In this document: positions 43,430 through 57,753 of the stretch, piece by piece
Layout: each line of letters opens with the position of its first letter
How positions within the stretch are numbered: the stretch's first letter is position 1
DNA from: a virus
DNA: 64,000 bases
IMG/VR virus record: IMGVR_UViG_3300030339_000003
Location: 167,367 to 231,366 of that record
Reading direction: 5' to 3' (one strand)
Position numbers and translations under genes: made by a program
Notes under the pieces: model-generated
The model's input: only the letters and a program-made list of their open reading frames with translations
Database searches by the model: none
Told to the model about the DNA's origin: nothing

Positions 43430-44074
43430 TTACATGGTAGCTTGGTAAGCAGTTGCGTCCAGATGACCGTAGTCAGTTGCTGGGATGTCGAGGTATGCTA
43501 CGCCGACCGGTGCATGATAAACTGCATCTTTGATGTAGTTATCAGCAAACACGTAAGTGTTGCCGGAAGTGGTAGTAGTTACAGAATCATCGAAATCATA
43601 GATGATAGCCGCTTTGATTGAAGCCAGTACAGCAGCCTGAGTCGCAGATTCGATTTGACCAGTTGGCGTGCCGCCCGCGATTGGTGCGTGAACTACCAGC
43701 AGTGCAGTTGCGTTGCTCAGTTCAGGAACAGCTACCTGATAAACACCTGCTTCTTCGATGTGGGTAATTGCATCGAGGAAAGAAGCCTGGTCAGTTACGC
43801 CGTCAAGTGTTTTGACAGTATAAGGCAGGATCTTTTGGTTTTGCAGAGTAGCACGAGTCCATGACTGTGCATCGCCGCGGAAGTTTTTGGTGGTGGAAAC
43901 AACGTTAGCAGAAATAACGCCGGTGCCTTCATCTTCAGTGATTGCACTGATTTGAAGATCAGCTTCAACCAAGCCATCAAACAGAGCGGCTTCGGCAGGA
44001 GTGGCGGAATAACGATCTTTGTTAAAAACGCTAAATGCGTTAATAAACAACTCTAGGGACTTTTTAGTAGCCAT
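43430..44074 (-). CDS. Abundant Ala/Thr-rich protein (214 aa), probably structural
   Basis: Highly optimised codons. Rich in Ala, Thr and Val with regular beta-prone segments and no Cys. It resembles small virion decoration or tail-tube-type proteins in composition, but no fold signature is visible. AAGGAT lies 12 bases before ATG 44074. No early-promoter element is found upstream, which favours late expression. The terminator at 43379 closes the unit. Confidence 0.82.
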   Translation of the reverse strand: MATKKSLELFINAFSVFNKDRYSATPAEAALFDGLVEADLQISAITEDEGTGVISANVVSTTKNFRGDAQSWTRATLQNQKILPYTVKTLDGVTDQASFLDAITHIEEAGVYQVAVPELSNATALLVVHAPIAGGTPTGQIESATQAAVLASIKAAIIYDFDDSVTTTTSGNTYVFADNYIKDAVYHAPVGVAYLDIPATDYGHLDATAYQATM

Positions 44075-44139
44075 GGCAATGAATATCCTTTAGTGGACGG
44101 AGGTTGTTGTATTTCGTGTGTACGTACAAATACATAAAA

Positions 44140-44439
44140 TTATATCACCCAGTAGATAATAGCACCGAGTGTTGTGATCCAAAATAAATCAATATCAACA
44201 AATTCATTACTTCGGAGTATGGAATAAATTATGTACAGTAAATGGAAAGCAATTATCCAAATTAAATAAGTGACTACATACATAAAACTAAATGCATTAT
44301 GTATTTTTGTTTCATGATAAACACATAGTGAAAACAACAACATTTGGTATATAAATAAGAAAAATTTCCATTGTGGTGTTAAAACGTATCGGATATGTTT
44401 TCTTACGTTAGAGATAACATGAATAACCGGTTTAAACAT
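44140..44439 (-). CDS. Small multi-pass membrane protein (99 aa or longer)
   Basis: Three transmembrane segments (FFLFIYQMLLFSLCVY, FMYVVTYLIWIIAFHLLYII and TLGAIIYWVI with flanks) separated by short loops. The start is uncertain: ATG 44439 has GGAC upstream. The frame is open to 44553, but its first codons would be the terminator hairpin at 44528 and its T-run, which happens to encode Phe-rich sequence. A membrane function such as a holin-like or exclusion protein is possible. AT-rich codons set it apart from its neighbours. Confidence 0.6.
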   Translation of the reverse strand: MFKPVIHVISNVRKHIRYVLTPQWKFFLFIYQMLLFSLCVYHETKIHNAFSFMYVVTYLIWIIAFHLLYIIYSILRSNEFVDIDLFWITTLGAIIYWVI

Positions 44440-44527
44440 AATTGTCTGTCCATCAAAATTAAAAGACGTTATAACTATTATATTTATTACTGTGGCACAA
44501 AATTGAAACAAAAAAATAAAGAACAAC

Positions 44528-44552
44528 TGGTAGAGCGCAATGCGCTCTACCA
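44528..44552 (-). terminator. Hairpin terminator
   Basis: 11-bp stem TGGTAGAGCGC / GCGCTCTACCA, then TTCTTTATTTTTTTG on the minus strand. It ends the 129-aa gene at 44558. Confidence 0.9.
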
Positions 44553-44557
44553 ATATG

Positions 44558-44947
44558 TCATTTTTGATTTAAGTAAATAAATGAATAGACTTTGTTCAAA
44601 AATGTAAATGATTTTTCGCACTGGGCTTTTTCTTCCTTTGTAGCCGCAGCGATGTCCAAAATTTCATAATTGTTAATGAGTGTGTACAATCCCGCTTTAG
44701 AATAGTTGCATTGCATTATTTTCTTTAATTCGCGACGCGCTGTGACGCCCAATGGTTTCTTTTCAATTATCTTAATTAAACCATTCGTTAATTTTTCATT
44801 GCGAGTGAATTTAGTTAAGAATAAACTACGGCGGGTTTCTTCTGGTGTGGTAGTATCGTTATTACGTTCATCAACTAACCGGCAATCCACAATGTGTTCA
44901 ATGGACGGAGATTTACTGCGAAAGAAATTTTGAATTATTTTAAACAT
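44558..44947 (-). CDS. Unknown basic protein (129 aa)
   Basis: Lys/Arg-rich soluble protein; the stretch TARRELKKIMQ followed by SKAGLYTLINNYEIL resembles a winged-helix or small DNA-binding arrangement, by eye only. GGACCAATT precedes ATG 44947. It lies downstream of the chaperonin with a terminator between, so it may rely on read-through. No family is recognised. Confidence 0.75.
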   Translation of the reverse strand: MFKIIQNFFRSKSPSIEHIVDCRLVDERNNDTTTPEETRRSLFLTKFTRNEKLTNGLIKIIEKKPLGVTARRELKKIMQCNYSKAGLYTLINNYEILDIAAATKEEKAQCEKSFTFLNKVYSFIYLNQK

Positions 44948-44968
44948 GACAATTGGTCCTTATAATTA

Positions 44969-44989
44969 CCTGGGGTTTACCACCCCAGG
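44969..44989 (-). terminator. Hairpin after the chaperonin gene
   Basis: 8-bp stem CCTGGGGT / ACCCCAGG with a 5-base loop directly behind the chaperonin stop. No long T-run follows, so termination may be partial. Confidence 0.7.
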
Positions 44990-45001
44990 CTAAGGCGTTA
45001 A

Positions 45002-46627
45002 TTAAAAACTTACAGCGCCAGATTTATTACCTAGCATGATGCTAGACGTATTAGCTAAAATCTTAGCGGTGGCAAATGCGCCTTTCAAAGCAGTAATTGA
45101 TGCATAGGCGGTATCGTACACGCCCAGGTATTCAGGTGTTCCTTGTTTGGTTGTTGCTAAGTTGACGATTTCCTTATAGGCAAGCATGGCAGGGAAGTTC
45201 TGACCAAAATCAATTGTTGAATCATAAATGCCCATGTCTTTGGTCAGATGCAACCATTGTTCAAAACAGACTTTTACGAAATCAGCAATCAGTGGTTCGC
45301 GTTCATATTGTAACGCTACAGTAAATGCGGCTTTACGAAGTGCAGTACCACAGCCAGGCAAGATGCCGTTTTCCAATGCGGACCTGACAGCCAACACAAC
45401 GTCATCATAACGGTCTTTACGCTCTTTGATTTCGTTTGGTGTTTCACCGCCCACATACACGGTTACGATCTCACTACGAAGCGCATAGAGACGTTTCTGA
45501 GTAGCACGACCATACGGACTATAACGACGCTGCGCACCTAAAGACTCTAATGAATCTTCGATATGTTTAGCCCGCTCTTCAATCCGTAATTGTGTTTCTT
45601 CGTTCATGCTTTTGATAATGGTTTGGTTTAGACTACTGATAATAGTTTCTTTACAAACCGTTAAGGTTGTAGATTCCAAATCAGTGAAAGCCGGAACTGT
45701 TTCAGCGCCTAACACGGTGGCCACGTCACCCAGAATTGCAGTGCCGATAGAACCGCCAGTCGAAGTACGGAATACTACAAACTTTTTATCGCCATGTGAC
45801 TCAGACAATGCCTGGTTGGTACTCAGAACCAAACCGACAAAACGATTGTCAACATTAGGCGCAACTAACCCGATACGATTGTTTGGATAGGTTTTAGCCA
45901 GCAAACGTAATTGCGTGAAGACTACTGAATCAGTAAGAGAACCATCAATAATTAAATTACGGTTAATGACGGCAAATACCATATCGGTAAATTCCGTATC
46001 AGCACCATTACCAAACGTACTAAACACACCATCAGCCAGAGTCATATGAACTGAATGACCTTGGGACTCCATGATCTTATCCTGCGCGCTGGAAGATTCA
46101 TAAATTTCAACCATCGGGAAACGATCTTTGTTACGATAGATATCCAGAACGTTTTTGGTAATCCCGTCGTCCTGATTAGCTGTGGTCAACGCCATGTCAT
46201 ACAGACGTGCGTCGTCACGAGTCAGATCGATAGTATCCTTCTTCAGTTGCTCGATGGTTTGATGTACCAAATCTTCAATACGCTTAGTGCTAACAAAGCC
46301 AGGGTATTTCAACAACAGATCGTAAAAGTATTTCATAAGAAACACAGTTGTGGTTGTACCATCACCACATTCGTTTTCAGTTTTACGAGCCGCTTCTTCA
46401 ATGATGCGGTTAATGCGTTCAGCGTGAGCGTCGTCCATTTCTAGACAACCTGCTACTGTTGCACCATCTTTAGTGGTTTGAGTTGCTGTACCTTCGGCAT
46501 ACACTACCACATTACCATTGGGACCCATGGTAGAAGTCACAATTTCAAAAACAGTATTCACTGTATCGGTAATTACTTTGCGCGTTTCATCTTTACCCAA
46601 AGCTTTAGGGCGTGTAGTTAAAGTCAT
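45002..46627 (-). CDS. Phage-encoded GroEL-type chaperonin
   Basis: 541 aa. Group I chaperonin hallmarks: TKDGATVAG (52-60; phosphate-binding, with Asp54), GDGTTTT (88-94), and DVVLAVRSALENGILPGCGTAL, the equivalent of the GroEL stretch that contains catalytic Asp398. The length is close to GroEL and the EL gp146 chaperonin. It lacks the GGM-repeat tail, and the apical segment differs strongly from the bacterial one. No co-chaperonin gene lies beside it, as in EL and OBP, whose chaperonin acts without one. The early promoter at 46680 implies early synthesis. Likely client: phage structural or enzymatic proteins. Confidence 0.95.
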   Translation of the reverse strand: MTLTTRPKALGKDETRKVITDTVNTVFEIVTSTMGPNGNVVVYAEGTATQTTKDGATVAGCLEMDDAHAERINRIIEEAARKTENECGDGTTTTVFLMKYFYDLLLKYPGFVSTKRIEDLVHQTIEQLKKDTIDLTRDDARLYDMALTTANQDDGITKNVLDIYRNKDRFPMVEIYESSSAQDKIMESQGHSVHMTLADGVFSTFGNGADTEFTDMVFAVINRNLIIDGSLTDSVVFTQLRLLAKTYPNNRIGLVAPNVDNRFVGLVLSTNQALSESHGDKKFVVFRTSTGGSIGTAILGDVATVLGAETVPAFTDLESTTLTVCKETIISSLNQTIIKSMNEETQLRIEERAKHIEDSLESLGAQRRYSPYGRATQKRLYALRSEIVTVYVGGETPNEIKERKDRYDDVVLAVRSALENGILPGCGTALRKAAFTVALQYEREPLIADFVKVCFEQWLHLTKDMGIYDSTIDFGQNFPAMLAYKEIVNLATTKQGTPEYLGVYDTAYASITALKGAFATAKILANTSSIMLGNKSGAVSF

Positions 46628-46679
46628 TTTTAAATCCTTGTTAGTGTGTTATAGAAAATAGCTAATACATTACACTTAA

Positions 46680-46687
46680 GTAATATA
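46680..46687 (-). promoter_or_regulatory. phiKZ-type early promoter element
   Basis: Minus strand ATTTGAACCTATATTACTTAAG, 53 bases upstream of the chaperonin start. Confidence 0.85.
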
Positions 46688-46696
46688 GGTTCAAAT

Positions 46697-47125
46697 TTAA
46701 TTGGTCATTAAAACCAAAGTATTACCCAGTGGTTGTGCGGTGAAAAAGAAACATTCATTGCCAATTGATAAATCGGTAATCTTTAATCCTTTATTAATAA
46801 GTTCATCCGTTGATGTATATTCTGGACAAATGTCCCTGTTCAAAAACGTCATGTTACAAACTGATACCCGAAGCTGAAGACTGGTAGGGTTACGACCACT
46901 TGCTTCGATAATTGTTAAGATTTTCTTTTCACACAAAGTAAACGCTTTTGTATGAGGAATCATCTTAGAATTGCCCATGTAGTTTTTTACAAAATCATGG
47001 ACTTCTTCATTTTGAAGTAAGTCAAGTGCAATTGCATCTATGCGCTTTATCACTTGATCAACACATTTGCGATTAGCATTAACGTCGCGTTTGTTAATCA
47101 AATGTTTAATGAATTTTTTAATCAT
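46697..47125 (-). CDS. Unknown protein (142 aa) upstream of the chaperonin
   Basis: Basic N-terminal helix (KKFIKHLINKRDVNANRK), then a mixed alpha/beta part with four cysteines spread over the sequence and no metal-site spacing. ATG 47125 has GGATT at 8 bases; ATG 47131 is too close to it. It ends just upstream of the chaperonin promoter. No family is recognised. Confidence 0.75.
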   Translation of the reverse strand: MIKKFIKHLINKRDVNANRKCVDQVIKRIDAIALDLLQNEEVHDFVKNYMGNSKMIPHTKAFTLCEKKILTIIEASGRNPTSLQLRVSVCNMTFLNRDICPEYTSTDELINKGLKITDLSIGNECFFFTAQPLGNTLVLMTN

Positions 47126-47142
47126 TTTCATAATCCAAAAAA

Positions 47143-47170
47143 ATAAGGGGAATAGTCCGTTTCCCCTTAT
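47143..47170 (-). terminator. Hairpin terminator
   Basis: 10-bp stem ATAAGGGGAA / TTCCCCTTAT behind the 239-aa gene, followed on the minus strand by TTTTTTTGG. Confidence 0.88.
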
Positions 47171-47212
47171 ATAAAAGTCCTCGTTAAAGGACGGCCAAAA
47201 AACACATTGTAG

Positions 47213-47932
47213 TTAGAGTGCGATCAATAAACCTAATTCTGAAACACGAACAAAATACTGTTCCGCTAAAGTTTCAACAAAATACGGGTTATGATAAAAA
47301 CTCGGTATTGCTTGTTTTGCTTTTTGCACAGGCGGGACATTCATATTAGGCTTAGCCGCCAATGCATCTGCCGCTGCCAAAACTTTATCATTATCCGCCC
47401 CTAGCATTTCTTGAAGCTTATTTAATACACTTTGAGAATGTCTTTCTAAGCTAACTTCAACACCAGCAACGAGATCAGTTATTTCTTTTGGTACTAAGTT
47501 ACCATAAAGACCTGCCATTCGTTTATCTACGAGATCTTGCGTCGCTTTGTCATCACGCACAAAACGTAAATAAGATCGGCCATCAACGACAATTAAATCA
47601 AAACGATACACTGTGCTGTTATCGGTAAAATCATCAAACCGATGAAATACGTCATAGCCCAAATCATAATTATTTTGTATTTCTTTTGAAACAATATGAG
47701 GATATTCTGGAACTTGGTGATTAGTAAATAAATCACTTAGTAAGCGTATAATACGACCCCCCATATCTCGACCAGCATGAGGGCTTATTTCGTCGTGCTG
47801 ACGACAATAATCATTTTGTACTACATCGCAAACACGACGATGATGTTCGGTATAATAACCCGGAATACCGTCAACATTAACTTTTTTTGGTTCTTTATAA
47901 AAATTCTGATCACTTAAATCTCTTACACTCAT
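47213..47932 (-). CDS. Unknown early protein (239 aa)
   Basis: A soluble, Asp/His/Arg-rich protein; residues about 20-75 include several His and Asp (YYTEHHRR, HDEISPHAGRDMG) that could bind metal, and the C-terminal third is helical with an Ala-rich linker. GGAG is before ATG 47932. It lies 2 bases after the 93-aa gene in the unit driven by the promoter at 48257. No family is recognised. Confidence 0.8.
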   Translation of the reverse strand: MSVRDLSDQNFYKEPKKVNVDGIPGYYTEHHRRVCDVVQNDYCRQHDEISPHAGRDMGGRIIRLLSDLFTNHQVPEYPHIVSKEIQNNYDLGYDVFHRFDDFTDNSTVYRFDLIVVDGRSYLRFVRDDKATQDLVDKRMAGLYGNLVPKEITDLVAGVEVSLERHSQSVLNKLQEMLGADNDKVLAAADALAAKPNMNVPPVQKAKQAIPSFYHNPYFVETLAEQYFVRVSELGLLIAL

Positions 47933-47934
47933 TT

Positions 47935-48216
47935 CTAACTCCTTAATTTACCAGTTGAATACGAAGGCATAACTTTTGCTTGCTCTTTCTTAATACGACG
48001 AGCAGACATTTTACGCTTCTGATTTTTAGTTAACGCTTCACGTACCAAGCGCGTTTTAAAACGAATACCACAGTTTACTTCAGGAGATAATTTACTAATA
48101 GGTACAACGTCTGGTTTAGTATGAAATAAATTACTGCGTTTCGCATACCCCATCAAAATATTTCCGATAGGTAACTCGCGCGAACTAATTAATACAACAT
48201 CTTTATCGTTAGACAT
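47935..48216 (-). CDS. Small early protein with LT..QK..MS.R.IKK motif (93 aa)
   Basis: The C-terminal half holds LTKNQKRKMSARRIKKEQAK, a basic helical stretch closely resembling LTAKQKSRMTSRQIKKHAKK at the end of the 298-aa protein at 50176. AAAGGTG precedes ATG 48216 and the early promoter lies 41 bases upstream. The rest has no recognised domain. The shared basic tail could be a nucleic-acid-binding element or a localisation tag; this is inference. Confidence 0.82.
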   Translation of the reverse strand: MSNDKDVVLISSRELPIGNILMGYAKRSNLFHTKPDVVPISKLSPEVNCGIRFKTRLVREALTKNQKRKMSARRIKKEQAKVMPSYSTGKLRS

Positions 48217-48256
48217 TACGCACCTTTAAATAATGATTACAGGTTTATCTACTCTA

Positions 48257-48264
48257 ATAATGTA
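48257..48264 (-). promoter_or_regulatory. phiKZ-type early promoter element (variant)
   Basis: Minus strand TTTCAGACCTACATTATTAGAG reads TACATTAT, two bases off the core with intact upstream TTTCAGACC. It stands 41 bases before the 93-aa gene. Confidence 0.7.
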
Positions 48265-48303
48265 GGTCTGAAATATTAACAGTGAAAATAAAAATAACGT
48301 AAT

Positions 48304-48331
48304 ATTACTCCTACCTCACGGTAGGAGTAAT
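48304..48331 (-). terminator. Hairpin terminator
   Basis: 12-bp perfect stem ATTACTCCTACC / GGTAGGAGTAAT with a TCAC loop, 13 bases behind the 169-aa gene. Member of the ACTCCTACC stem family. Confidence 0.9.
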
Positions 48332-48343
48332 AGATTAGATCAC

Positions 48344-48853
48344 TTACTCGCGATTTTTACGACGAGCTTTCATGTGTTTAATAACAACATCTTGCAAACT
48401 ACTTTTTGATGCTGGTGTTGCAGCCATAAGAACATCGATTTCACCACGACGTAACCCGCCTTCTGGCATACGGCCTGTTTGTTGGATAGTACGACAATGG
48501 CTCGTTAATGAAGAATGTACAGATTTATCTGCATTTGATTGGCAATGGCATTGTGCGCATTTACCGTCATCTTTTGCTTTAATACGACCGGCCTTTTGAA
48601 TATCGTGCTCTAAAGGCAAAATTGGCGTGAGATATGCACACTGAACGTCAGTGTCAGTGACCTGCTCTTTACGACTGATGTTCATTTCGGCGTCAGTACA
48701 AGGCAGAACCGGAACTGGAAGACCTTTTGCTGCTAACAGTATACGTTGAGCGGTTTTACCGCTAAAATACAAACGAGCCGGAGCACCAATAGCAACCATT
48801 GGTTTCAGTTCACTATTACCCAGGATATCTTTTACTTTGTTTTCTTTAGACAT
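48344..48853 (-). CDS. Unknown early protein with a Cys cluster (169 aa)
   Basis: Contains CAQCHC near residues 100-105 plus a His and Cys at about 117-119 (SHCRT): a possible zinc-binding knuckle. The C-terminus is basic (KHMKARRKNRE). AAAAGGA precedes ATG 48853. A TATATTAC-like element (AATATTAC, 48897-48904) lies in the upstream hairpin. No family is recognised. Confidence 0.75.
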   Translation of the reverse strand: MSKENKVKDILGNSELKPMVAIGAPARLYFSGKTAQRILLAAKGLPVPVLPCTDAEMNISRKEQVTDTDVQCAYLTPILPLEHDIQKAGRIKAKDDGKCAQCHCQSNADKSVHSSLTSHCRTIQQTGRMPEGGLRRGEIDVLMAATPASKSSLQDVVIKHMKARRKNRE

Positions 48854-48881
48854 AACTTATTTCCTTTTAAACGTTTGTGTG

Positions 48882-48936
48882 ACTAAGTGGGGTTAACGTA
48901 ATATTAAGAATTTCATATAACCCCTTACCCCACTTA
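48882..48936 (-). terminator. Long-loop hairpin behind a secreted-protein gene
   Basis: 10-bp arms CTAAGTGGGG / CCCCACTTAG enclose 35 bases with an alternative inner stem (GGGGTTA / TAACCCC). The two pairings compete, so this may be a switch-like terminator. An early-promoter-like AATATTAC lies in the loop on the minus strand. Confidence 0.55.
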
Positions 48937-48974
48937 GCCGTTGTTTAGTATTTAATATGTTTAACAGTTAAAAA

Positions 48975-49325
48975 TTAATTAACTGTACCGAAAGTAAAAT
49001 TACCTTTGTTTGTTTGTACAACAAACCCAGTATAATTGCAATCGTTATAGATACGATATACTGCGACCGCACCACGTTCTAACACAGCAGGTGTAGCAAA
49101 CTTACCCTTACACTCTGCACCAGCAAAAGCAATGTTAGTGATTGTCAGTTCGTCACTGACGTTAGTAATGATCATATCTTTAAAATGATACGCTTTATCA
49201 CCAGAACGAATATCGCCAAAAGAACTGTAGATCTGAAGCACATTATCAGCAGGGAAAGACTGAGCATTTGCAATACCACACACAAACAAACCTAACCCTA
49301 CAACAGCTGATTTTAACATGTTCAT
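48975..49325 (-). CDS. Secreted early protein, paralogue A (116 aa)
   Basis: Signal peptide with cleavage after NAQ or ANA (residues about 20-22). The mature part resembles the 124-aa protein at 49782: DMIITNVSDELTITNIAF against DYIITSMTNNLLVMDVIA, then C.G in both, V.VYRI against VLIYRM, then DC and QTNKGNFTF against LTNKGNQSF. Two Cys are conserved and could form a disulfide. Both are probably periplasmic beta-sandwich proteins. ATG 49325 has AAGG upstream. No family is recognised. Confidence 0.85.
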   Translation of the reverse strand: MNMLKSAVVGLGLFVCGIANAQSFPADNVLQIYSSFGDIRSGDKAYHFKDMIITNVSDELTITNIAFAGAECKGKFATPAVLERGAVAVYRIYNDCNYTGFVVQTNKGNFTFGTVN

Positions 49326-49334
49326 TTAATTACC

Positions 49335-49769
49335 TTATTTTTCACGAGAATCTTCAATGAGTACAAACATAACTTCATCGCCGCCACGCTTTTGGTTAAA
49401 GTTTTCCAATGTACGAGCAAAGGCCCGCAATTCGTCAGAGTCTTTACCAAAAATATCGTCCAGGAAACTAAAGGTCAATTCTTCATGAATACCAAACCCA
49501 TACAGATGTTCGGTTAATGGGAGTTGCCAATTTGTTTCCTCTTCTTCAACCAGTTCACGACGCGTCGCCAATAAAAGATCTAAAGTCAACTCATCGATAC
49601 CGACAACCTTTTTACAATCATCAGTTACACTGCTGTCGATTTCATTATAATCTTTGGTAATTTCACCAGAGTTCAAGAAATCAAAAGCATCGTCAACACT
49701 TCCATCACAAATAGTACTCAACACTTCTTCATTCAAAATATACAAACGTGCAATAATTGGAGAAGACAT
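49335..49769 (-). CDS. Unknown acidic protein (144 aa)
   Basis: Very acidic (many Asp and Glu) and helical, lying between the two secreted paralogues. AAAGGGG precedes ATG 49769. The charge and lack of Cys suggest a cytosolic binding or DNA-mimic type of protein, but this is only composition. Function unknown. Confidence 0.78.
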   Translation of the reverse strand: MSSPIIARLYILNEEVLSTICDGSVDDAFDFLNSGEITKDYNEIDSSVTDDCKKVVGIDELTLDLLLATRRELVEEEETNWQLPLTEHLYGFGIHEELTFSFLDDIFGKDSDELRAFARTLENFNQKRGGDEVMFVLIEDSREK

Positions 49770-49781
49770 ATTAAACCCCTT

Positions 49782-50156
49782 TTAATTAAAAGAAAAACTT
49801 TGATTACCTTTGTTAGTCAAGATAACCATATTTTTGACAGTACAATCTTTACCTTTTTGAATAATGGGCATACGGTAAATAAGAACATATCCGTCACCTA
49901 TCACGCTAAGATTAGGATTACCCATGAACCCAGTACACGTTGTGTCATCAGCAATCACATCCATAACCAAAAGGTTATTTGTCATTGATGTGATGATATA
50001 ATCCATGACCTGTATTTCTGACCCGTCTTTTGCGGGTAATGTAGTCAGGACAGGACTAACAACTAAAAGCCAGTTATCTTGCTTAGGCGGAACACTTGCA
50101 AAACAACTTACGGAAAACATTACAATAAAAACAAGCAAATATTTAAATGTGTTCAT
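49782..50156 (-). CDS. Secreted early protein, paralogue B (124 aa)
   Basis: Signal peptide with a hydrophobic core and SCFA-S cleavage region (about residues 17-21); because a Cys lies near the site a lipoprotein is possible, but the lipobox is poor. The mature domain is similar over about 90 residues to paralogue A at 48975, including both conserved Cys and the TNKGN.SF end. AGGGA precedes ATG 50156. The two secreted genes flank an acidic protein gene in one unit. Confidence 0.82.
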   Translation of the reverse strand: MNTFKYLLVFIVMFSVSCFASVPPKQDNWLLVVSPVLTTLPAKDGSEIQVMDYIITSMTNNLLVMDVIADDTTCTGFMGNPNLSVIGDGYVLIYRMPIIQKGKDCTVKNMVILTNKGNQSFSFN

Positions 50157-50175
50157 GGGGATCCCTAATTAATGA

Positions 50176-51072
50176 TTATTTGTTTTTCTTAGCATGCTTT
50201 TTGATTTGACGAGAAGTCATGCGTGATTTTTGTTTGGCGGTAAGAGTAATCGATCTCGCCCATTTCTTAACATCAATTGTTCCTTCAGTGTCGTAAAACA
50301 CATCTGGAGTGGATTGTTTAGCTTTGGCGATAATGCTATCCAGGCAAGGAATTGAGTGAGAAAGAATCCCCCCAATGACACCAGCCGAATGTGTGAGTAA
50401 AGAACCGTCAAGAAACGATTTATCGCTTCGAATCGATAACCTTACATTTGAATCACGTGATAATAATTTATCAACCAAATCAAGTTCACCGGGTTTAATA
50501 GTTATGGTTCCTTCAGTTAACGGATTATAGTGCATCGAGTCCAACAAATCTTTTAACTTTGAAATCGATTCAGCGTTCCAAATGCTACCGTTAGCTTTAA
50601 AGATTTCATCCATTTGTCTACGAAGTATGATGAGATCTTCAACATCATTTTCATCTTTACCCAAATCGGACTTATGGAATTCAATAGCATCATTGATTGT
50701 TGCAAACACAATCCCCGATTCAAAGCGTGACACTACCTTTACACCAATGAATGGGTGGCGCTCACCCATTTCTACCTTGCGACGCAGAAGCCCTTCACTT
50801 TTACCGAAAGCCTCTTTACGTGCTTTTAATTCTTGTTCCGCAGTTTCAGCAATATTTAAACCATCGGGGGAAAGAAAAACGGGAGTTTCCAAACTGCTTT
50901 TATTAGAGCGCTCACGCATGCGCTCTGATAGACCATAATAGCGACTACTTTGTAAATTGGCGAGTGTTACCATTTCATCTGGAATGGTAAATCCATCCGA
51001 TTCCGGAGTATCAAAGATATCGTTCTTCAAACCTTTCTTATAATTGGGGTCACGCTTTAAGCTTACAGTCAT
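50176..51072 (-). CDS. Unknown early protein with basic C-terminal tail (298 aa)
   Basis: Start ATG 51072 has GAGGAAT upstream; the frame can be read from a TTG at 51087 but that is less likely. A soluble, charged protein. The last 25 residues include LTAKQKSRMTSRQIKKHAKK, the motif shared with the 93-aa protein at 47935. The middle is mixed alpha/beta with a run of Asp/Ser. It lies downstream of the 40-aa peptide, behind a terminator. Function unknown. Confidence 0.82.
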   Translation of the reverse strand: MTVSLKRDPNYKKGLKNDIFDTPESDGFTIPDEMVTLANLQSSRYYGLSERMRERSNKSSLETPVFLSPDGLNIAETAEQELKARKEAFGKSEGLLRRKVEMGERHPFIGVKVVSRFESGIVFATINDAIEFHKSDLGKDENDVEDLIILRRQMDEIFKANGSIWNAESISKLKDLLDSMHYNPLTEGTITIKPGELDLVDKLLSRDSNVRLSIRSDKSFLDGSLLTHSAGVIGGILSHSIPCLDSIIAKAKQSTPDVFYDTEGTIDVKKWARSITLTAKQKSRMTSRQIKKHAKKNK

Positions 51073-51103
51073 GGAATAATTCCTCAAAAAATATAAAGAA
51101 ATA

Positions 51104-51127
51104 CTAAGGGCTCAAACGAGCCCTTAG
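51104..51127 (-). terminator. Hairpin terminator
   Basis: 10-bp perfect stem CTAAGGGCTC / GAGCCCTTAG with an AAAC loop behind the 40-aa gene, followed on the minus strand by TATTTCTTTATATTTTTTG. Confidence 0.88.
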
Positions 51128-51131
51128 CTTA

Positions 51132-51254
51132 TTACTTATTCAAGATAGCCTGACGACCACGGTTATCTTCTTTGCAATGCTTAACAAAACTTTTAGCAGC
51201 GGCGAATACAACAACAACTGCGATAGGAGTAATAAATGCAACGATAATAGCCAT
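51132..51254 (-). CDS. 40-aa membrane peptide
   Basis: ATG 51254 is preceded by AAGGA at 8 bases; TAA at 51132-51134. The product begins MAIIVAFITPIAVVVVFAAA and has a basic, polar C-terminus (KSFVKHCKED, then NRGRQ): one transmembrane helix plus cytosolic tail. A perfect terminator lies 4 bases after the stop. Shape and size recall small holin-like or inhibitory membrane peptides, but function is unknown. Confidence 0.72.
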   Translation of the reverse strand: MAIIVAFITPIAVVVVFAAAKSFVKHCKEDNRGRQAILNK

Positions 51255-51287
51255 GGTAATATCCTTAATAAGTATGTTTAAATTAAA

Positions 51288-51650
51288 TTACAGACGATGT
51301 TGGTTGAGCTTCAACATTTGTTCAAAAGTATCACGTTTCAACAAACGTTCCAATTTAGGATCGTAGGTCTTGTGATCGATTTCCATTTTAACCAGTTCAC
51401 CTGATGCGTTGTTAATCATGGTGACCGTATAATCCATTCCTATTTTGACCATGACATCGATCAAGCGAGGAAGTGACACATGTACAAGACGCATGTTCTT
51501 AATACCCAACAGCGTGCCGTACGGGACGCGTGAGTCACGGGATAACTGCTTAATAGTCCCATGATTCAAATGACGATGCAGATAAGAAGACACCTGAGCA
51601 TAAGCGAACACACGTACTCGTTCGGTAGATCCTTGGCGTACTGTAGACAT
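51288..51650 (-). CDS. XRE-like helix-turn-helix DNA-binding protein (120 aa)
   Basis: Residues about 30-75, from GTIKQLSRDSRVPYGTLLGI through the Arg-rich wing and VSLPRLIDVMVKIGMDYTV, match the HTH pattern of XRE/lambda-repressor-type regulators (ELA...GVS...I, then L..L...G). The N-terminal stretch is basic, and the remainder is a dimer-like helical region. AAGGGTATTTGTT precedes ATG 51650. It may regulate phage or host transcription in the early phase. The match is made by eye. Confidence 0.68.
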   Translation of the reverse strand: MSTVRQGSTERVRVFAYAQVSSYLHRHLNHGTIKQLSRDSRVPYGTLLGIKNMRLVHVSLPRLIDVMVKIGMDYTVTMINNASGELVKMEIDHKTYDPKLERLLKRDTFEQMLKLNQHRL

Positions 51651-51664
51651 AACAAATACCCTTC

Positions 51665-52087
51665 TTATTTGGTTTTAAAAACGTCGTGGAAAAAATGAGC
51701 ATAATCTTTATTCAGTATTTCCAAGATTTCTGTTTTGTCGCAATCTTCGGAAACATAAGCTAATCCGGCTTCCTCTTCATAGGTAAAGACAATTTGATTA
51801 TTCTTTACATACAAAATATAGTCATACCAGACATTCCCATCAAGCCCATAAATGTGCAATGACCCAGTATAACCCTCAGGACTTTTGATGGCAATTGTAA
51901 GCTCATTACCATCATCAGCCGCTTGCGCGTATTCATTACCAGTACTCACAAAACCCAATTTACCATCAACATCAATAGCAAATTGGGCCAGTGTGCAGCC
52001 GAATTGTTTAGACTGATAATTATCAGAAAGATAAACAATTTTAACTTTGTTATCCTTCGCTACTTTAAAATCATCAAACATACCCAT
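51665..52087 (-). CDS. Unknown early protein (140 aa)
   Basis: An acidic, Asp/Tyr-rich protein with strong beta character, Cys at two separated places and no recognised domain. It opens MGMFDDFKVAKDN; AAAAGG lies 12 bases before ATG 52087, and the ATG two codons later is possible. It sits between the HTH gene and the 135-aa early gene. Function unknown. Confidence 0.78.
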   Translation of the reverse strand: MGMFDDFKVAKDNKVKIVYLSDNYQSKQFGCTLAQFAIDVDGKLGFVSTGNEYAQAADDGNELTIAIKSPEGYTGSLHIYGLDGNVWYDYILYVKNNQIVFTYEEEAGLAYVSEDCDKTEILEILNKDYAHFFHDVFKTK

Positions 52088-52165
52088 AATTTTAATTACC
52101 TTTTAAAAAGAATCAAATAAAAGTTTTAGTTAGGCTATCGGCCAAAATAGGATAACGATCATAGA

Positions 52166-52573
52166 TTAAGCAGCCAGGAAATCCTCTGCTAATACTTTGA
52201 ACTCTTCTTCTACTTTAGACGCAGTGTTATAAACACCAGTGACTACCCACAGTTTTTCCAAGCCTTTAACTGTGATGAACTGACGATAAGCAGCCCATGC
52301 TTTGTTCAGGTCGTTTGCAAAGCTTTTAACTACAGTAGCGTTAGCACGCAACCAAGTATAAACGCTAGCCAAACGGTCGTAACGGCTTTCTTCGTTACGA
52401 ATAATAGATACAGCGCGATCAACGTCTTCTTCTAAGATGGTGATTTCTTCACCTTTAGGATTGGACCAGATATAACGACGTTCAGCAATACGAATGATTG
52501 TTGCTTTAGATGCAGTGATGTTAGCACGCACTAATTCGATAAACTCTTTAGATAATACAAATGAAAGTTTCAT
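52166..52573 (-). CDS. Abundant early helical protein (135 aa)
   Basis: ATG 52573 has AGGAG 8 bases upstream, one of the strongest ribosome sites in the window; an ATG at 52600 lacks one. Optimised codons. The sequence is almost entirely helical (long stretches such as KATIIRIAERRYIW and ASKVEEEFKVLAED), with no Cys. It is first behind the early promoter at 52630, whose core and flanks are full consensus. High early output suggests a stoichiometric inhibitor or binding protein. Function unknown. Confidence 0.85.
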   Translation of the reverse strand: MKLSFVLSKEFIELVRANITASKATIIRIAERRYIWSNPKGEEITILEEDVDRAVSIIRNEESRYDRLASVYTWLRANATVVKSFANDLNKAWAAYRQFITVKGLEKLWVVTGVYNTASKVEEEFKVLAEDFLAA

Positions 52574-52629
52574 GGTAATACTCCTAGGTTGGCCGATCAA
52601 TAAACATAATTGTTTATTTATATACCCAA

Positions 52630-52637
52630 GTAATATA
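52630..52637 (-). promoter_or_regulatory. phiKZ-type early promoter element
   Basis: Minus strand TTTCAGACCTATATTACTTGGG, 57 bases before the 135-aa gene. Perfect core and upstream box. Confidence 0.88.
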
Positions 52638-52662
52638 GGTCTGAAACCTTCTGTATTATAAA

Positions 52663-53190
52663 TTATTGCTTATCGATACTTACCGCAAAATCAGGTAGTA
52701 ATGCTTTGATTGCATTAAGTACAATCGTAGCATGCATGAGTTCGTCAATATAAATATTAACCAAATAATGCATGTGTTTATCTATGCCAACTAAACGTAA
52801 AGTGATGTATTGATCGGCATCAGTAAGTTTTTCATCATCAGCGATTAAAGCTAACGTTCTTTGTTCCTGGCCAGGACGATTAAACATGTGGCGTGGAGCA
52901 TTACTACTGGATGTCACGTAGCTAATATGACCCTTACAACTTAATCCTAGTGGGGCCGCTCTAGCCAATTCATGATACAGCTCCCAGGTATTAAAACGAT
53001 GATCGGTGAGTTCAGATAATTGACGTTCATTAATAATCGTTTCGGAATAGCCTTCATCAAACAAAGACATAAAGTTTATGCTTTCTTTAATTTCCCTGAT
53101 ACTTTTCCGTGTAGCTTTATTGGATTCAATACCAGCTAGTCGGTCGATAATTGTTTTTAATTGGTTAATTAAAAATTCTGATTCTTTCAT
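52663..53190 (-). CDS. Unknown protein (175 aa)
   Basis: A soluble helical protein with charged N-terminal helices (residues 1-55), a central beta segment with one Cys and a hydrophobic C-terminal helix. AAAAGGAG precedes ATG 53190, a strong site. It ends just upstream of the promoter at 52630. No family is recognised. Confidence 0.8.
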   Translation of the reverse strand: MKESEFLINQLKTIIDRLAGIESNKATRKSIREIKESINFMSLFDEGYSETIINERQLSELTDHRFNTWELYHELARAAPLGLSCKGHISYVTSSSNAPRHMFNRPGQEQRTLALIADDEKLTDADQYITLRLVGIDKHMHYLVNIYIDELMHATIVLNAIKALLPDFAVSIDKQ

Positions 53191-53201
53191 GTTAGCTCCT
53201 T

Positions 53202-53666
53202 TTACTTTGGCGTAGAAATTGTTTGAACATCGTGCTGTAGTTTAGTTAACAAATCAACAGCATCAGAATTATGTTCAGCTCCCAATAAAAGTTTTACCAT
53301 CCCTAATACATCCGCTTTAGAATAGACAATGTATAAATTATTATCGTCGAATAATCCTTCTCTCCCGGATTCGTCAAATCCCAATGGATAGTCTTTTTGA
53401 TCCAAGTTATTTTTAAGATTATGCAAAATTTCTTCGTACGCTAATGCGGTAACCGTAAAACAGTCTTCGTTATATGCTGGATGGTCTTCTGGGATGTCGG
53501 TATTAATGCAATTTACGGGCTGATAAACAAAATCGATTTGTTCTTCTCCGTTTGACAATTTACAATGTATTGGGTTTGAACCAATGTCACAATAAGTTTT
53601 ATCAAAATAAGAAAAAATAGTTCCAGCGGGCAGTTTCTTAAAATCTTGATATTTATAAATTTTCAT
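53202..53666 (-). CDS. Unknown acidic protein (154 aa)
   Basis: Acidic (many Asp, Glu) with a Tyr/Asn-rich N-terminus and three Cys. AAGGA precedes ATG 53666. Terminator 53687 lies upstream of it, and the gene runs to 11 bases from the next one. Function unknown. Confidence 0.78.
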   Translation of the reverse strand: MKIYKYQDFKKLPAGTIFSYFDKTYCDIGSNPIHCKLSNGEEQIDFVYQPVNCINTDIPEDHPAYNEDCFTVTALAYEEILHNLKNNLDQKDYPLGFDESGREGLFDDNNLYIVYSKADVLGMVKLLLGAEHNSDAVDLLTKLQHDVQTISTPK

Positions 53667-53686
53667 GTTAAATTCCTTAAATAAAT

Positions 53687-53712
53687 ATATCCTTACCTTA
53701 CGGTAAGGATAT
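53687..53712 (-). terminator. Hairpin terminator
   Basis: 11-bp perfect stem ATATCCTTACC / GGTAAGGATAT with a TTAC loop behind the 34-aa gene, then a T-rich stretch on the minus strand (ATTTATTTAAGG). Confidence 0.88.
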
Positions 53713-53729
53713 AGAGTTAATCAATTTCT

Positions 53730-53834
53730 TTATGAGAACAATGGGGTTTGTTTATTACGCAAGATAATGTCATTGTTAATGATCTTGCGGTAATCTTTAG
53801 TATGGTCTTCGCCATACAGTAAGATCTTGTGCAT
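53730..53834 (-). CDS. 34-aa peptide
   Basis: ATG 53834 overlaps the stop of the membrane-protein gene (TAATG), with GGTGG upstream; TAA at 53730-53732. The product begins MHKILLYGEDHTKDYRK and is polar and basic. The stop-start overlap and terminator behind it make it plausible, but the short length keeps confidence moderate. Function unknown. Confidence 0.6.
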   Translation of the reverse strand: MHKILLYGEDHTKDYRKIINNDIILRNKQTPLFS

Positions 53835-54031
53835 TATTTCCACCCCTTAGATAGTAGGTATATCCCGACAAAAGCAATAACCAAACCAACCATTACTACG
53901 GTAACAGATTTATAACTTTTACGATACCAACCAGGTTTAAAGTCAGTATGATCTTCATCGTAAATAAAGAAAGATATAAACATTAACCCTGCTGCTACAT
54001 ATAAAAGAATGTTGCCAATTTTGTCAGCCAT
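53834..54031 (-). CDS. Two-pass small membrane protein (65 aa)
   Basis: Transmembrane helices at about 7-24 (ILLYVAAGLMFISFFIY) and 42-60 (VTVVMVGLVIAFVGIYLL) are joined by a charged loop. It overlaps the end of the PP-loop ATPase gene by 8 bases, and the two are probably co-translated. The topology would place both ends in the cytosol, or both outside. A membrane anchor or pore-forming accessory of the PP-loop protein is a possibility, without proof. Confidence 0.78.
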   Translation of the reverse strand: MADKIGNILLYVAAGLMFISFFIYDEDHTDFKPGWYRKSYKSVTVVMVGLVIAFVGIYLLSKGWK

Positions 54032-54971
54032 TGGTATCGTCCGCGGTGGTTAAATCATTAGGAGTGTTTTCGGGCGTTGTTTGTGGGTGGTTTTTGTCAT
54101 AATAGTCAATGGCTAAACAAATTCTTTCATGCAATTCCATACACTTTTTGTATTCCTGAAGAAGTGTATCCGAGTCAACAACAGTTTTATTTTTTAGATA
54201 TGCATTTAAATTTAAAAATTTACTTAATAAAAATTCTTCTGGATGTTGCAAATCAGAAGGTTTTGCATAAGAGAACTTATCTGAATCAGCAAAACATCTC
54301 CCGTAATCATTAACAAACAATTGTCTGTTTTCATCCCAATCATTTAAATAATTAGGTAACGGGATATCAGCCGCTTTGTATTCTTCAAGTTTAGCGGGAC
54401 TGACATTTGGACCAATCATGTTTAAAACCAAATAATCTCTTAACCCAGGATTTATTCTTTCATAAACAATACGTTTGGTTAAATTCCACAATGGCGTGAT
54501 AATCGGTATCGGATGAACAGATAAACGAGACAACGGATTAACTGTAATTGGATAATGTTTTAATTCATCGTATTGTTTTTCAGTTAAGTCAGAATAATTA
54601 AGAGACGTTTCATAAGCATCTTCTTTTAACCATCCAGCGACAAAAACCACACTATTGTAAAATTCACGGCCTTGTGCGTCAGTTAACATACATGCAGTGC
54701 GAAACTGTTGGTTTACACGCAGAGATTTATTTTCACCTCTATGCGTGCCAAAAAACGACTTAGGAGAATAAACTAACCAAATACTCGCTTTTGGATAAAG
54801 TTCTGTTAATCGTTTATAAGCTCGATAAATTAATGACGCCTCATAAACTTCAGCTGCGCGACCATTAACACAACCATAAGTCAATTCAACGGCATAACCT
54901 TGTTCAATATACATTTGTGCTAAGTACATTGATTCAACACCGCCACTAAAGGCAACAATAGCCGTTTTCAT
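54024..54971 (-). CDS. PP-loop ATP-pyrophosphatase, QueC-related
   Basis: 315 aa. Residues 8-14 are FSGGVES, the PP-loop of the N-type ATP-pyrophosphatase family (consensus SGGxDS, here with Val-Glu). The segments FVAGWLKEDAYETSLNY and TPLWNLTKRIVYERI follow QueC-like order (nucleotide site, then the P.....K.EI. helix). The QueC zinc tetrad of closely spaced cysteines is absent, so it is not a standard 7-cyano-7-deazaguanine synthase. AGAGGAT precedes ATG 54971. It overlaps the two-pass membrane gene behind it. It may adenylate a carboxylate or nucleoside substrate in defence evasion or DNA modification; the substrate is unknown. Confidence 0.75.
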   Translation of the reverse strand: MKTAIVAFSGGVESMYLAQMYIEQGYAVELTYGCVNGRAAEVYEASLIYRAYKRLTELYPKASIWLVYSPKSFFGTHRGENKSLRVNQQFRTACMLTDAQGREFYNSVVFVAGWLKEDAYETSLNYSDLTEKQYDELKHYPITVNPLSRLSVHPIPIITPLWNLTKRIVYERINPGLRDYLVLNMIGPNVSPAKLEEYKAADIPLPNYLNDWDENRQLFVNDYGRCFADSDKFSYAKPSDLQHPEEFLLSKFLNLNAYLKNKTVVDSDTLLQEYKKCMELHERICLAIDYYDKNHPQTTPENTPNDLTTADDTNG

Positions 54972-54972
54972 A

Positions 54973-55263
54973 TTACTTATCCTCTAAGTCTTTATTAAGT
55001 TTCTTTTCAGCAAAATCGATACAACTAAATATTTGTTTCTTTTCCAAACGTAAATTGGCAACAGTAGTATTTAATCGATTGCCGTTATTAACAGTTTCCC
55101 AGTAAATGGGAGATTCTATTTCAGTTACGTTTAGGTTTTCTAACTTTTCATTATTGCGAATGATGTCTTGTAATAATACGATAAGCTCACTATTAACCTT
55201 AACAAGATTTTTCTTCATTCGGTCAATATCGGCAATACGTTTAAGATGCTCTTGTTTGGTCAT
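54973..55263 (-). CDS. Small coiled-coil protein (96 aa)
   Basis: ATG 55263 has GGTGG upstream; an ATG at 55278 is unlikely. Residues about 5-45 and 65-95 are charged helices with heptad character. It ends 1 base before the PP-loop gene start, so it is likely coupled to it. Function unknown. Confidence 0.75.
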   Translation of the reverse strand: MTKQEHLKRIADIDRMKKNLVKVNSELIVLLQDIIRNNEKLENLNVTEIESPIYWETVNNGNRLNTTVANLRLEKKQIFSCIDFAEKKLNKDLEDK

Positions 55264-55288
55264 TATAACCACCAACAATGAATGTGAT

Positions 55289-55318
55289 TAAAAGGGCGCA
55301 GTTACCCACGCCCATTAA
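55289..55318 (-). terminator. Hairpin behind the 260-aa gene
   Basis: GGGCG / CGCCC stem with AT-rich outer pairs and TTTTAA after it on the minus strand. It is weaker than the others. Confidence 0.6.
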
Positions 55319-55343
55319 AATTACTGATGAGAGACTTAACTCT

Positions 55344-56123
55344 TTAAACTAAAGAAAATTTCTTTGCTTTAGTTGGGTTGGTCAGTAAAACGTAACCCGT
55401 CTTGACTGGGTTTTCGAAGTCTGTGTTATCACCTTCGAATACCATTACACGGCCTGTAGCCGTAATTACATAGTACGATACGTCTTCCTTCTTTTCTTTG
55501 TTGTAGTAGACATTAGCACGACGAACAATCAAACCACAATTGATCACCTTTTTAATATTGTCGTTAGTTGTTGTCTTGACCAAAGTGTAAGTAGTTTCTT
55601 TATGGACACCTTGTTTGATAGAGATCTTTTCTTTCTCTAACAGTTCTTTGACGAAGTCAGGTGTCAAAATAGGTGACATCGGACTAGTACCATGTGCAAT
55701 CATTGTGTTAGTCGCATAGTACGTTTGCATAACGCGATGCTTCATGCTTTCCAAGAACTGGTGACCGAATAACAACGGACGGTCAACACTGTGGTAATTG
55801 TCTTTCTTAAACAGTTGGGTGAAGGACACATTCCCGAAATCCATTTTTAACAGGATCTCTTTATTATCATTAGGAATAATGATAGAAGGCACCAGCAGTT
55901 TGTCAGTGATACCTTTCAACATCATAGAAGAAAGACGAGGCTTGCCGATAAAGCCAGTGTTATTACGGACCAGCTGGGTTGTTACTTGGATACGCATAAT
56001 GCCATCAGTCGCAGTTACTACGGACAATGAATCTGCGATCTTACCATCATCAAAGAAACCACCCACGTTATGCAGGTTATGATGGAAACAGACCAGATGC
56101 GCAACACCAGTTTTTGTTGTCAT
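55344..56123 (-). CDS. Unknown early protein (259 aa)
   Basis: ATG 56123 has AAAGG upstream and lies just behind the stop of the ParB-like gene; the longer frame to 56180 would overlap that gene without a ribosome site. A beta-rich, Lys-rich protein with the N-terminal segment LVCFHHNLHNVGGFFDD containing a His cluster. No family is recognised. The final residues are NPTKAKKFSLV. Confidence 0.8.
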   Translation of the reverse strand: MTTKTGVAHLVCFHHNLHNVGGFFDDGKIADSLSVVTATDGIMRIQVTTQLVRNNTGFIGKPRLSSMMLKGITDKLLVPSIIIPNDNKEILLKMDFGNVSFTQLFKKDNYHSVDRPLLFGHQFLESMKHRVMQTYYATNTMIAHGTSPMSPILTPDFVKELLEKEKISIKQGVHKETTYTLVKTTTNDNIKKVINCGLIVRRANVYYNKEKKEDVSYYVITATGRVMVFEGDNTDFENPVKTGYVLLTNPTKAKKFSLV

Positions 56124-56148
56124 TGTTTTATTGCCTTTTGTTGTGGGA

Positions 56149-56634
56149 TTAAGAAACTTTACAAGACTTAATATCATCATAAGTCATGACACGAGCATGT
56201 ATTTTAGTACGACCGTTTAACGACGCTTTCATGATACGATTAAATCCATCTAATACTCTCCAACGTCCGTTGTGTCGGATAACTAAAATAGGGTATACTG
56301 TTTTTGCTGCCTCCACTTTTTCTTTAGTAATTGATGAAAATAACAAAGCGTGCATGACGTCCATAAGTGGGAAATCCACAATAGGTTTAACACTACCAGC
56401 GGCTCTTAATAATAGCGGTGAATATTTGTCGCCCAAAAACAAAACATTATCTTCAAGATTAAAGAATGTTTCACTTTTTGTTGGGTCAGACAACAGTGAC
56501 ATATGCAATTGGGCGAGTTCTTGAAGAGACATATTCTTTTCAGGTTCAATACCCAACCAAGTTACTTTGGAAATAATGTTACCATTACCTCTAACAATGT
56601 GACGAGCTTGATCTACTTTCTTTTCTTCTTGCAT
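56149..56634 (-). CDS. ParB-like nuclease-fold protein (161 aa)
   Basis: Residues about 113-150, from YPILVIRHNGRWRVLDGF through NRIMKASLNG to HARVM, follow the ParB/Srx N-terminal pattern (P..V.......V.DG..R..A........). The stretch DGFNRIMKA (129-137) is the phosphate-binding turn. There is no HTH domain, so it is a stand-alone ParB-like domain as found in nucleases, CTPases and phage anti-restriction or methyltransferase-linked proteins. GAGGC precedes ATG 56634, which lies 22 bases inside the preceding gene. It probably acts on DNA or a nucleotide in the early phase. Confidence 0.7.
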   Translation of the reverse strand: MQEEKKVDQARHIVRGNGNIISKVTWLGIEPEKNMSLQELAQLHMSLLSDPTKSETFFNLEDNVLFLGDKYSPLLLRAAGSVKPIVDFPLMDVMHALLFSSITKEKVEAAKTVYPILVIRHNGRWRVLDGFNRIMKASLNGRTKIHARVMTYDDIKSCKVS

Positions 56635-56894
56635 GGATTGCCTCTGCGTTTACTGGAACATGTTGCTAATTTAGGTGGACGTAATGAAACAGGTTTACGG
56701 TAATAATGTTTTCTTTGAAGTCGAACTATTCCTTTAATGGCTTTACGAAATGAATTACCAATGTTTTTAACCGCCTGTTCTAAATCGGTTAGACCTTCAT
56801 CGACACTTGCAATACATTCTGCAATATAGGTATCGTCCCAATTTGCCTCTTCAACAATTATAAACTCTTCATCGAAATTAGTAACTTCGCCCAT
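56613..56894 (-). CDS. Small protein with basic C-terminal tail (93 aa)
   Basis: ATG 56894 has GGAGG at 4 bases beyond the usual spacing, a strong site; a longer frame overlaps the upstream gene and is rejected. The N-terminal half is acidic. The C-terminal half is strongly basic and contains CSSKRRGNPCKKKRK. It overlaps the ParB-like gene by 22 bases. The asymmetric charge suggests binding to a nucleic acid. Function unknown. Confidence 0.78.
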   Translation of the reverse strand: MGEVTNFDEEFIIVEEANWDDTYIAECIASVDEGLTDLEQAVKNIGNSFRKAIKGIVRLQRKHYYRKPVSLRPPKLATCSSKRRGNPCKKKRK

Positions 56895-56904
56895 AATGCC
56901 TCCA

Positions 56905-57336
56905 CTACCAACGTTTAGTTTTATTATTACCCATTTTAAAACGAGTAGGATGTAATTGACCCGTGTGTTGATCGAAATGCTTTCTTTTACCAGGCGCGTA
57001 TGATTGTAAACTTTGGCTGGTAGGTAAATTGATTTCCATAAGCTTAGCGCGCTCTTGGATATCACGATAGGTTTGTCGACCCATATGCTGGATTGTCTGG
57101 AGACTAGGTCCTGCGCCCAACACAACCGTTCTGGTAACATGTGGTTGTGAATGATGATATTGGAAATCTTTGAGTTCAGATTCTTTTACGCATACCACAT
57201 TAACCCGGATTTCGTTATCCAAACATTCTTTAAAGAAAGCTTCAGTGTTTGGAATTTGAACACCTTGTTCGTCAAACAAAACAACTTCATTAGTTATTTC
57301 ACTGGACGCCATAGTCACATTAACACTTTTGCACAT
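56905..57336 (-). CDS. Unknown protein with C-terminal KTKRW (143 aa)
   Basis: ATG 57336 has GGTGG upstream and follows the stop of the 136-aa gene; a longer frame is rejected. The C-terminal part is basic and His-rich (GKRKHFDQHTGQLHP) and ends NKTKRW, the same terminal motif as its neighbour at 57338. Middle: VTRTVVLGAGPSLQTIQHMG, a Gly-rich turn that could bind a nucleotide. No family is recognised. Confidence 0.78.
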   Translation of the reverse strand: MCKSVNVTMASSEITNEVVLFDEQGVQIPNTEAFFKECLDNEIRVNVVCVKESELKDFQYHHSQPHVTRTVVLGAGPSLQTIQHMGRQTYRDIQERAKLMEINLPTSQSLQSYAPGKRKHFDQHTGQLHPTRFKMGNNKTKRW

Positions 57337-57337
57337 A

Positions 57338-57748: not shown

Positions 57749-57753
57749 TTCAA

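Follow-up and report, generated by a model that had tools for sequence, protein, structure and literature searches.

Several phages encode small exclusion proteins located in the cell envelope: Sp and Imm of T4, Llp of T5 and Cor of the phi80 type. Proteins with exclusion or defence functions diverge fast. Jumbo phages are best known for intracellular events. In the portions of two overviews considered here (PMC7824862 and PMC13282480) the words "periplasm" and "signal peptide" are not used; the superinfection section of the former treats Ter systems and surface modification and includes no exported binding proteins. Among the titles and abstract openings on jumbo-phage superinfection exclusion and on the island genes discussed below, we have found no paper on the domain family which we describe here.

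The window studied is a stretch of 64,000 nt (G000:C1:167367-231366) from a virus record of 231,366 bases. It contains a GroEL-like chaperonin gene (45002-46627) with a strong match to phrog_5725 (E 1.2e-113). The chaperonin is 37-39% identical to its counterparts in Pseudomonas phage EL and relatives and in Erwinia phage RisingSun, so that the source is a jumbo phage, distantly related to EL and RisingSun. From 43430 to 58431 every ORF kept in our greedy list lies on the minus strand. This region includes a compact run of a 303-aa gene, A2, an acidic gene and A1, in this order, with intergenic gaps of 19, 12 and 9 bases (Table 1). The 303-aa gene, whose product has a C-terminus rich in Lys and Arg, is probably the first gene of the unit, and the inverted repeat after A1 is a possible end of it. 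The product of another gene (47935-48216, minus strand) is otherwise unlike the 303-aa protein, but has a similar Lys/Arg-rich motif near its C-terminus (LTAKQKSRMTSRQIKK in the 303-aa protein and LTKNQKRKMSARRIKK in the other). These two are the only ones which match the pattern among the 65 window ORFs; the motif may act as a tail for sorting or for the binding of nucleic acids. Elsewhere in the window four successive genes of about 300 aa (59764-63421, minus strand) have similar N-termini and are likely a run of paralogues.

Table 1 Position of the A1/A2 unit, of nearby elements and of comparable genes in other loci
Feature	Positions	Strand	Remarks
A1, exported protein of 116 aa, ATG start	48975..49325	-	predicted signal peptide residues 1-21 (about 49263-49325); mature part of 95 aa, predicted Ig-like domain, Cys72 and Cys96
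Acidic protein of 144 aa between A1 and A2	49335..49769	-	without signal peptide by a simple rule
A2, exported paralogue of 124 aa, ATG start	49782..50156	-	predicted signal peptide residues 1-20 (about 50097-50156); mature domain of 104 aa, Cys74 and Cys105
303-aa protein directly upstream of A2	50176..51087	-	TTG start; slightly shorter with ATG start
Terminator-like hairpin preceding the run of four genes	51103..51128	-	
Inverted repeat after A1	48883..48937	-	CTAAGTGGGGT...ACCCCACTTAG; long loop, read by eye
Exact EL/OBP-type site, nearest upstream of the unit	52630..52646	-	
Exact EL/OBP-type site, next downstream of the unit	48257..48273	-	
Ten EL/OBP-type promoter-like sites	964, 2673, 4105, 28219, 34591, 41263, 46680, 48257, 52630, 58475	-	
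Exported companion in other loci	L113 5448-5909, L109 5447-5911, L136 4792-5256, L138 3796-4272		
Acidic genes of about 146 aa in Aeromonas phages	L073 6364-6807, L074 6355-6795, L078 6259-6696, L080 6347-6784		

A first-pass annotation of the sequence had described A1 and A2 as secreted paralogues with conserved cysteines, and this description has held. Both ORFs are present on the minus strand. Their products are paralogues which have diverged; each has a signal peptide, and two cysteines are common to both. In the BLASTP alignment, of 122 columns, they are 26% identical (E 4e-9). The mature domains have a Smith-Waterman score of 88, while the maximum is 57 when the signal peptides are removed and one partner is shuffled 5000 times (mean 24.9, sd 4.3). 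Each signal peptide has a basic n-region, a hydrophobic core and an Ala-X-Ala-type site, according to a simple and loose rule which 7 of the 65 window ORFs pass, A1 and A2 included. The last two cysteines of A1 (16, 72, 96) correspond to the last two of A2 (18, 74, 105); the first one of each protein lies inside the signal peptide. No lipobox pattern is found in either protein, Cys18 of A2 being preceded by S-V-S. All relatives which we have read at full length have a signal peptide, a hydrophobic N-terminus or a lipobox (by eye). A location of A1 and A2 in the envelope, at the periplasm or cell surface as suggested in the first-pass annotation, is therefore well supported as a prediction.

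The pair had also been placed in an early unit, a property which could not be observed in the letters as such. Promoters have been predicted for OBP, N1M2, EL and phiKZ, and the OBP promoter is reported as early in the part of PMC7058600 which we have used. From a table in that paper we composed the EL/OBP-type consensus TTTYARRYMTAYATTAY, with up to 2 mismatches allowed. Ten sites are found in the window, all of them on the minus strand, where 2.8 are expected and none of 100 shuffles reaches 10; the consensus was drawn up after some window sites had been seen and the test is not blind. Early-promoter-like sites bracket the unit on its own strand, which agrees with the early assignment. The terminator-like hairpin lies between the site at 52630 and A2, so that any direct control from this site is putative. 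Early expression of the unit is a fair inference, moderately supported by these sites. Another site of the same type precedes the GroEL-like gene.

Relatives of the pair are distant. A direct tblastn search with A1 or A2 against 50,697 phage records gave no match, with E values allowed up to 1, megablast of the A1-A2 region found nothing, and searches of viral contigs with A1, with A2 and with the alignment of the pair gave no relatives. The family was therefore reached solely through a weak match in a profile scan: phrog_36014, which has no assigned function, matches A1 across most of its length (E 0.049), and by itself does not reach A2. A combined profile of A1 and A2, the search proposed in the first-pass annotation, recovers RisingSun gp79 from the RisingSun genome (E 0.0046). 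The phrog_36014 profile recovers A1 from the genome of the source phage (E 0.0075), so that the link of gp79 with A1 is reciprocal. Identity among A1, A2 and gp79 is 17-27%.

With gp79 as a tblastn query we have found members in Aeromonas phages CF8, AerS_266, AVP1, ACP1, ZPAH34, PS1, PS2 and pAEv1810, in Klebsiella phage Eowyn, in KpHz_2 and KpGz_1 (labelled Serratia), in Erwinia phage SNUABM_54 and in Xanthomonas phage Rb1; the search gave 20 records with E up to 10, some of them weak by themselves, such as pAEv1810 (E 7). A family profile of 13 rows (A5) matches 14 of 45 phage records at E 0.1 or better; its rows were drawn from 11 of these 14, and only KpGz_1, KpHz_2 and Rb1 (7.3e-13) are independent of it. 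It is negative in the other 31, namely EL, Miami, phiKZ, Goslar, SPN3US, PhiPA3, OBP, PCH45 and 23 IMG/VR records which carry related GroEL genes; the family is therefore dispensable. A profile of the mature domains of the other 17 members, without A1 and A2, finds A1 at 4.5e-8 and A2 at 0.007; the best decoy for this profile is 0.12 among 9172 shuffled sequences, and the best decoys of all leave-out tests range from 0.12 to 0.52. When only A2 is left out it is found at 2.3e-5. Rb1 (1.7e-13), Eowyn gp203 (3.2e-4) and five island-type members omitted together (3e-19 or better) are also recovered. A1 and A2 thus almost certainly belong to a phrog_36014-like family of exported domains, as judged from these profiles.

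The first conserved cysteine, after an NRG-type turn, is found in all 19 aligned members. So is the second one, before the penultimate strand, in column 97 (8 members), in column 107 (9) or next to column 97 (2, by eye). Tandem pairs of family genes are found in four records: the source phage, Eowyn, KpGz_1 and KpHz_2. The Rb1 member is a lipoprotein form with lipobox LAGC and an Ala/Pro-rich linker. Its gene (L082 3707-4228) is unannotated, and the neighbouring annotated genes are on the other strand. In the tree of the 19-member alignment A1, A2, Eowyn gp203 and the SNUABM_54 member have very long branches, so that it does not tell whether transfer went from phages to islands or the other way. 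Three kinds of matches were discarded: one in G014 (E 0.0175; 67 aa with a stop, N-terminal half only, not recovered by the family profile), a second one in ZPAH34 (E 0.0103), which lies within a 421-aa frame, and phrog_31104 with the other matches of E 0.005-1 to window proteins, which we took as noise. Pfam, NCBIfam and PADLOC, which are incomplete libraries, give no match that names a function.

An acidic gene is indeed flanked by A1 and A2. Its product has 34 D/E and 13 K/R and shows the highest net acidity among the 65 window ORFs; no relatives of it were detected. In four of the seven Aeromonas phages read (CF8, AerS_266, ZPAH34 and PS1) a very acidic gene of about 146 aa comes right after the family gene; it is absent in AVP1, ACP1 and pAEv1810. 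We have rejected the idea that it is the same partner: hhalign gives a probability of 0.1% with the window protein, and the latter comes 584th of 1020 when ranked together with shuffles and window ORFs. The acidic protein of SNUABM_54 was likewise rejected as a relative. The arrangement alone is alike in the window and in the Aeromonas phages; the acidic proteins are dissimilar.

Predicted structures had also been suggested as a check. The model of mature A1 (ten-row alignment, mean pLDDT 77.7, pTM 0.64) is all-beta, with six strands and no helix. Its first match in BFVD is RisingSun gp79 (E 5.4e-4), followed by Eowyn gp202 (E 8.2e-4). In the PDB the best Foldseek match has E 3.9e-3 and the best VIA match a Z of 7.2, with 2.7 A over 71 residues; all are generic sandwiches. 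Adaptin ears, ApaG, DsbD-N and others belong to this kind of match and were not used for function. A sequence search of the PDB gave only matches of E 0.052 and 1.5. According to the model the A1 domain would be an ordinary Ig-like beta-sandwich, and nothing points to an active site.

The domain is also found in bacteria, within enterobacterial integrative islands. A search of bacterial genome contigs gave six relatives. Five of them are an exported protein of 261 aa, with the domain in its last 91 residues; the sixth, from Yokenella, is a stand-alone protein of 120 aa with a near-copy on an IMG/VR contig (L109). The same contigs searched with the Aeromonas rows gave none. The island of E. coli ATCC 25922 has tRNA-Sec at its start, followed by an integrase and ABC-three-component genes, and that of FHI_NMBU_03 has a type I restriction system next to it. 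In both of them there follow a WYL regulator, a GTPase, the exported protein, an HTH gene, an inovirus Gp2 gene, DUF932, RadC, YeeU and CbtA. A DNA query with the GTPase and exported-protein genes has some match in 703 of 5426 complete E. coli genomes and at least 80% coverage in 200 of them, ATCC 25922 and Nissle 1917 included, which brings a test in ordinary laboratory strains within reach. Of 149 genomes sampled from the family to which the Citrobacter genome belongs, 8 match at 1e-5, two of them already found earlier. Genes of the RadC or DUF932 type are present in four of the six newly found loci and, overall, in 13 of 15 bacterial or island loci (by eye). Elements of this kind, with an HUH endonuclease, RadC/ArdB and a CbtA/CbeA module, are described as defence-carrying mobile elements (PMC12458937, section 11); the exported protein is not mentioned in that section.

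Some further observations concern neighbours and extensions of the island forms. An exported companion of 154-158 aa adjoins the stand-alone form in bacterial islands, as seen by eye except for L113. The Yokenella companion (L113, 154 aa) matches phrog_3429 (E 6.9e-10); this phrog has a further match in the SNUABM_54 genome, away from the family gene (2.0e-6). The model of the full 261-aa protein is good in the common domain only, with pLDDT mostly below 60 in the N-terminal part; its BFVD matches to EL Q2Z179, to PhiEaH1 and to another protein of RisingSun may be due to this poorly modelled part and were given no weight. The window has a third probably exported protein (2791-3243, minus strand, 150 aa), for which no relatives were found. 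By eye it resembles the N-terminal domain of the 261-aa protein; this likeness, and with it the idea of a fusion, was not borne out (rank 91 among about 2000 shuffles in a profile test, BLASTP E 0.10, none of 45 records).

The first-pass annotation had given, as an example of the function, a block against a second phage or an envelope defence, which is a putative role. We propose, with a probability of about 0.38, that A1 and A2 are periplasmic binding modules which block an envelope step of competing phages. They would be synthesised with a Sec signal peptide, exported and trimmed. In the periplasm the mature proteins would fold as small Ig-like beta-sandwiches, each probably held by one disulphide between the two conserved cysteines, and would act as binding modules and not as enzymes. 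The blocked step may be a receptor, an injection site or an entry factor, and the divergence of A1 and A2 may serve to cover two targets or two types of phage. Enterobacterial mobile islands with anti-phage genes would use the same domain for a like purpose, as they would gain from excluding phages. The idea comes from the presence of the domain in a lytic phage and in anti-phage islands, since both profit from a closed cell. It is favoured by the ABC-three-component or type I restriction genes which adjoin in both annotated E. coli islands, and by the two copies in the phage beside EL/OBP-type promoter sites. The whole island context (integrase, inovirus Gp2, RadC, CbtA/YeeU, anti-phage cargo) fits an exclusion role, without being a proof of it. 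On the other hand, none of the known exclusion proteins is homologous to the family, the family is dispensable as judged from the 31 phage records without it, and exclusion pays a lytic phage for a short period only. Furthermore the island gene is found in the constant backbone, with the GTPase and the WYL regulator, outside the variable defence cargo; it may thus serve the element itself.

The strongest rival, which we nevertheless consider unlikely, is that A1 and A2 inhibit a protein of the host envelope by binding to it and so keep the infected cell intact and productive. The target could be an envelope stress sensor, a protease, a lysozyme-like or peptidoglycan enzyme, or a defence trigger located in the envelope; in islands the domain would protect the host of the element likewise. 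Export, a small fold predicted to be of the binding type with no enzyme-like match, the wide occurrence of the family in unrelated hosts and elements, and its place in the island backbone together with CbtA/YeeU genes all agree with such a role. A paper cited in PMC12458937 reports, in its title, an action of CbtA on FtsZ and MreB. However nothing indicates a host target, and the fast divergence noted above (17-27% identity) suggests a target that changes.

A role in lysis, by which the pair would set its timing from the periplasm or assist the lysis apparatus, is improbable. There are precedents for small exported proteins with cysteines in this process, and the T4 antiholin RI sets lysis timing from the periplasm; but no annotated lysis gene adjoins the family gene in 11 annotated phage regions, where most neighbours are "hypothetical", the domain is present in bacterial islands, and the promoter context is of the early type. 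Slightly less probable still is that the pair is exported in order to hinder the uptake or transfer of plasmids and other mobile elements, by entry exclusion or fertility inhibition: the bacterial relatives are on mobile islands, but among 72,556 plasmid records there is a single match to the Yokenella protein at E 1e-3, and no transfer genes were recognised beside it. It is very improbable that A1 and A2 are virion or assembly proteins with misleading signal-like N-termini: RisingSun gp79 lies near head genes, but it is missing among the 31 proteins detected by mass spectrometry in a RisingSun lysate, which argues weakly against a virion part, and there are bacterial island relatives and a lipoprotein form. 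The portion of the main text considered (PMC6034870) does not name gp79.

The block of competing phages has a wider version, which is tentative and rather doubtful: a hitherto unnamed exported Ig-like domain, common to lytic jumbo phages, with diverged tandem pairs in the source phage and in Eowyn-like phages, and to the conserved backbone of defence-carrying integrative islands in enterobacteria, would be a periplasmic module for conflicts over phage entry or the envelope. If this is true, phages and mobile elements of a competing class use the same protein to hold the cell against other phages. An exported family common to giant phages and defence islands offers a testable handle on their conflict at the envelope.

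Among the closest known proteins, the 261-aa island protein (in E. coli ATCC 25922 and Nissle 1917, among others), annotated as "hypothetical protein", has the A1/A2 domain as its C-terminal 91 aa, 48% identical to RisingSun gp79 over 87 aa (phrog_36014, 3.6e-21). It differs from A1 and A2 by an extra N-terminal domain, a Gln-rich linker and the position of its gene after those of the WYL regulator and the GTPase. RisingSun gp79 itself (RisingSun and Joad, phrog_36014) resembles A1 in its signal peptide, a single domain of about 90 aa and two cysteines, but it is a single copy near head genes and shares 17-22% identity with A2 and A1. Eowyn gp202/gp203 and the equivalent pairs in KpGz_1 and KpHz_2 are tandem exported members as A1 and A2 are; unlike these they are directly adjacent, with no acidic gene in between, and the N-terminus is longer in the first copy. 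For A1 and A2, whose exclusion activity is putative, there was no sequence match to any named family; T4 Sp and Imm, T5 Llp and phi80-type Cor are small phage-encoded proteins located in the envelope, as A1 and A2 are predicted to be.
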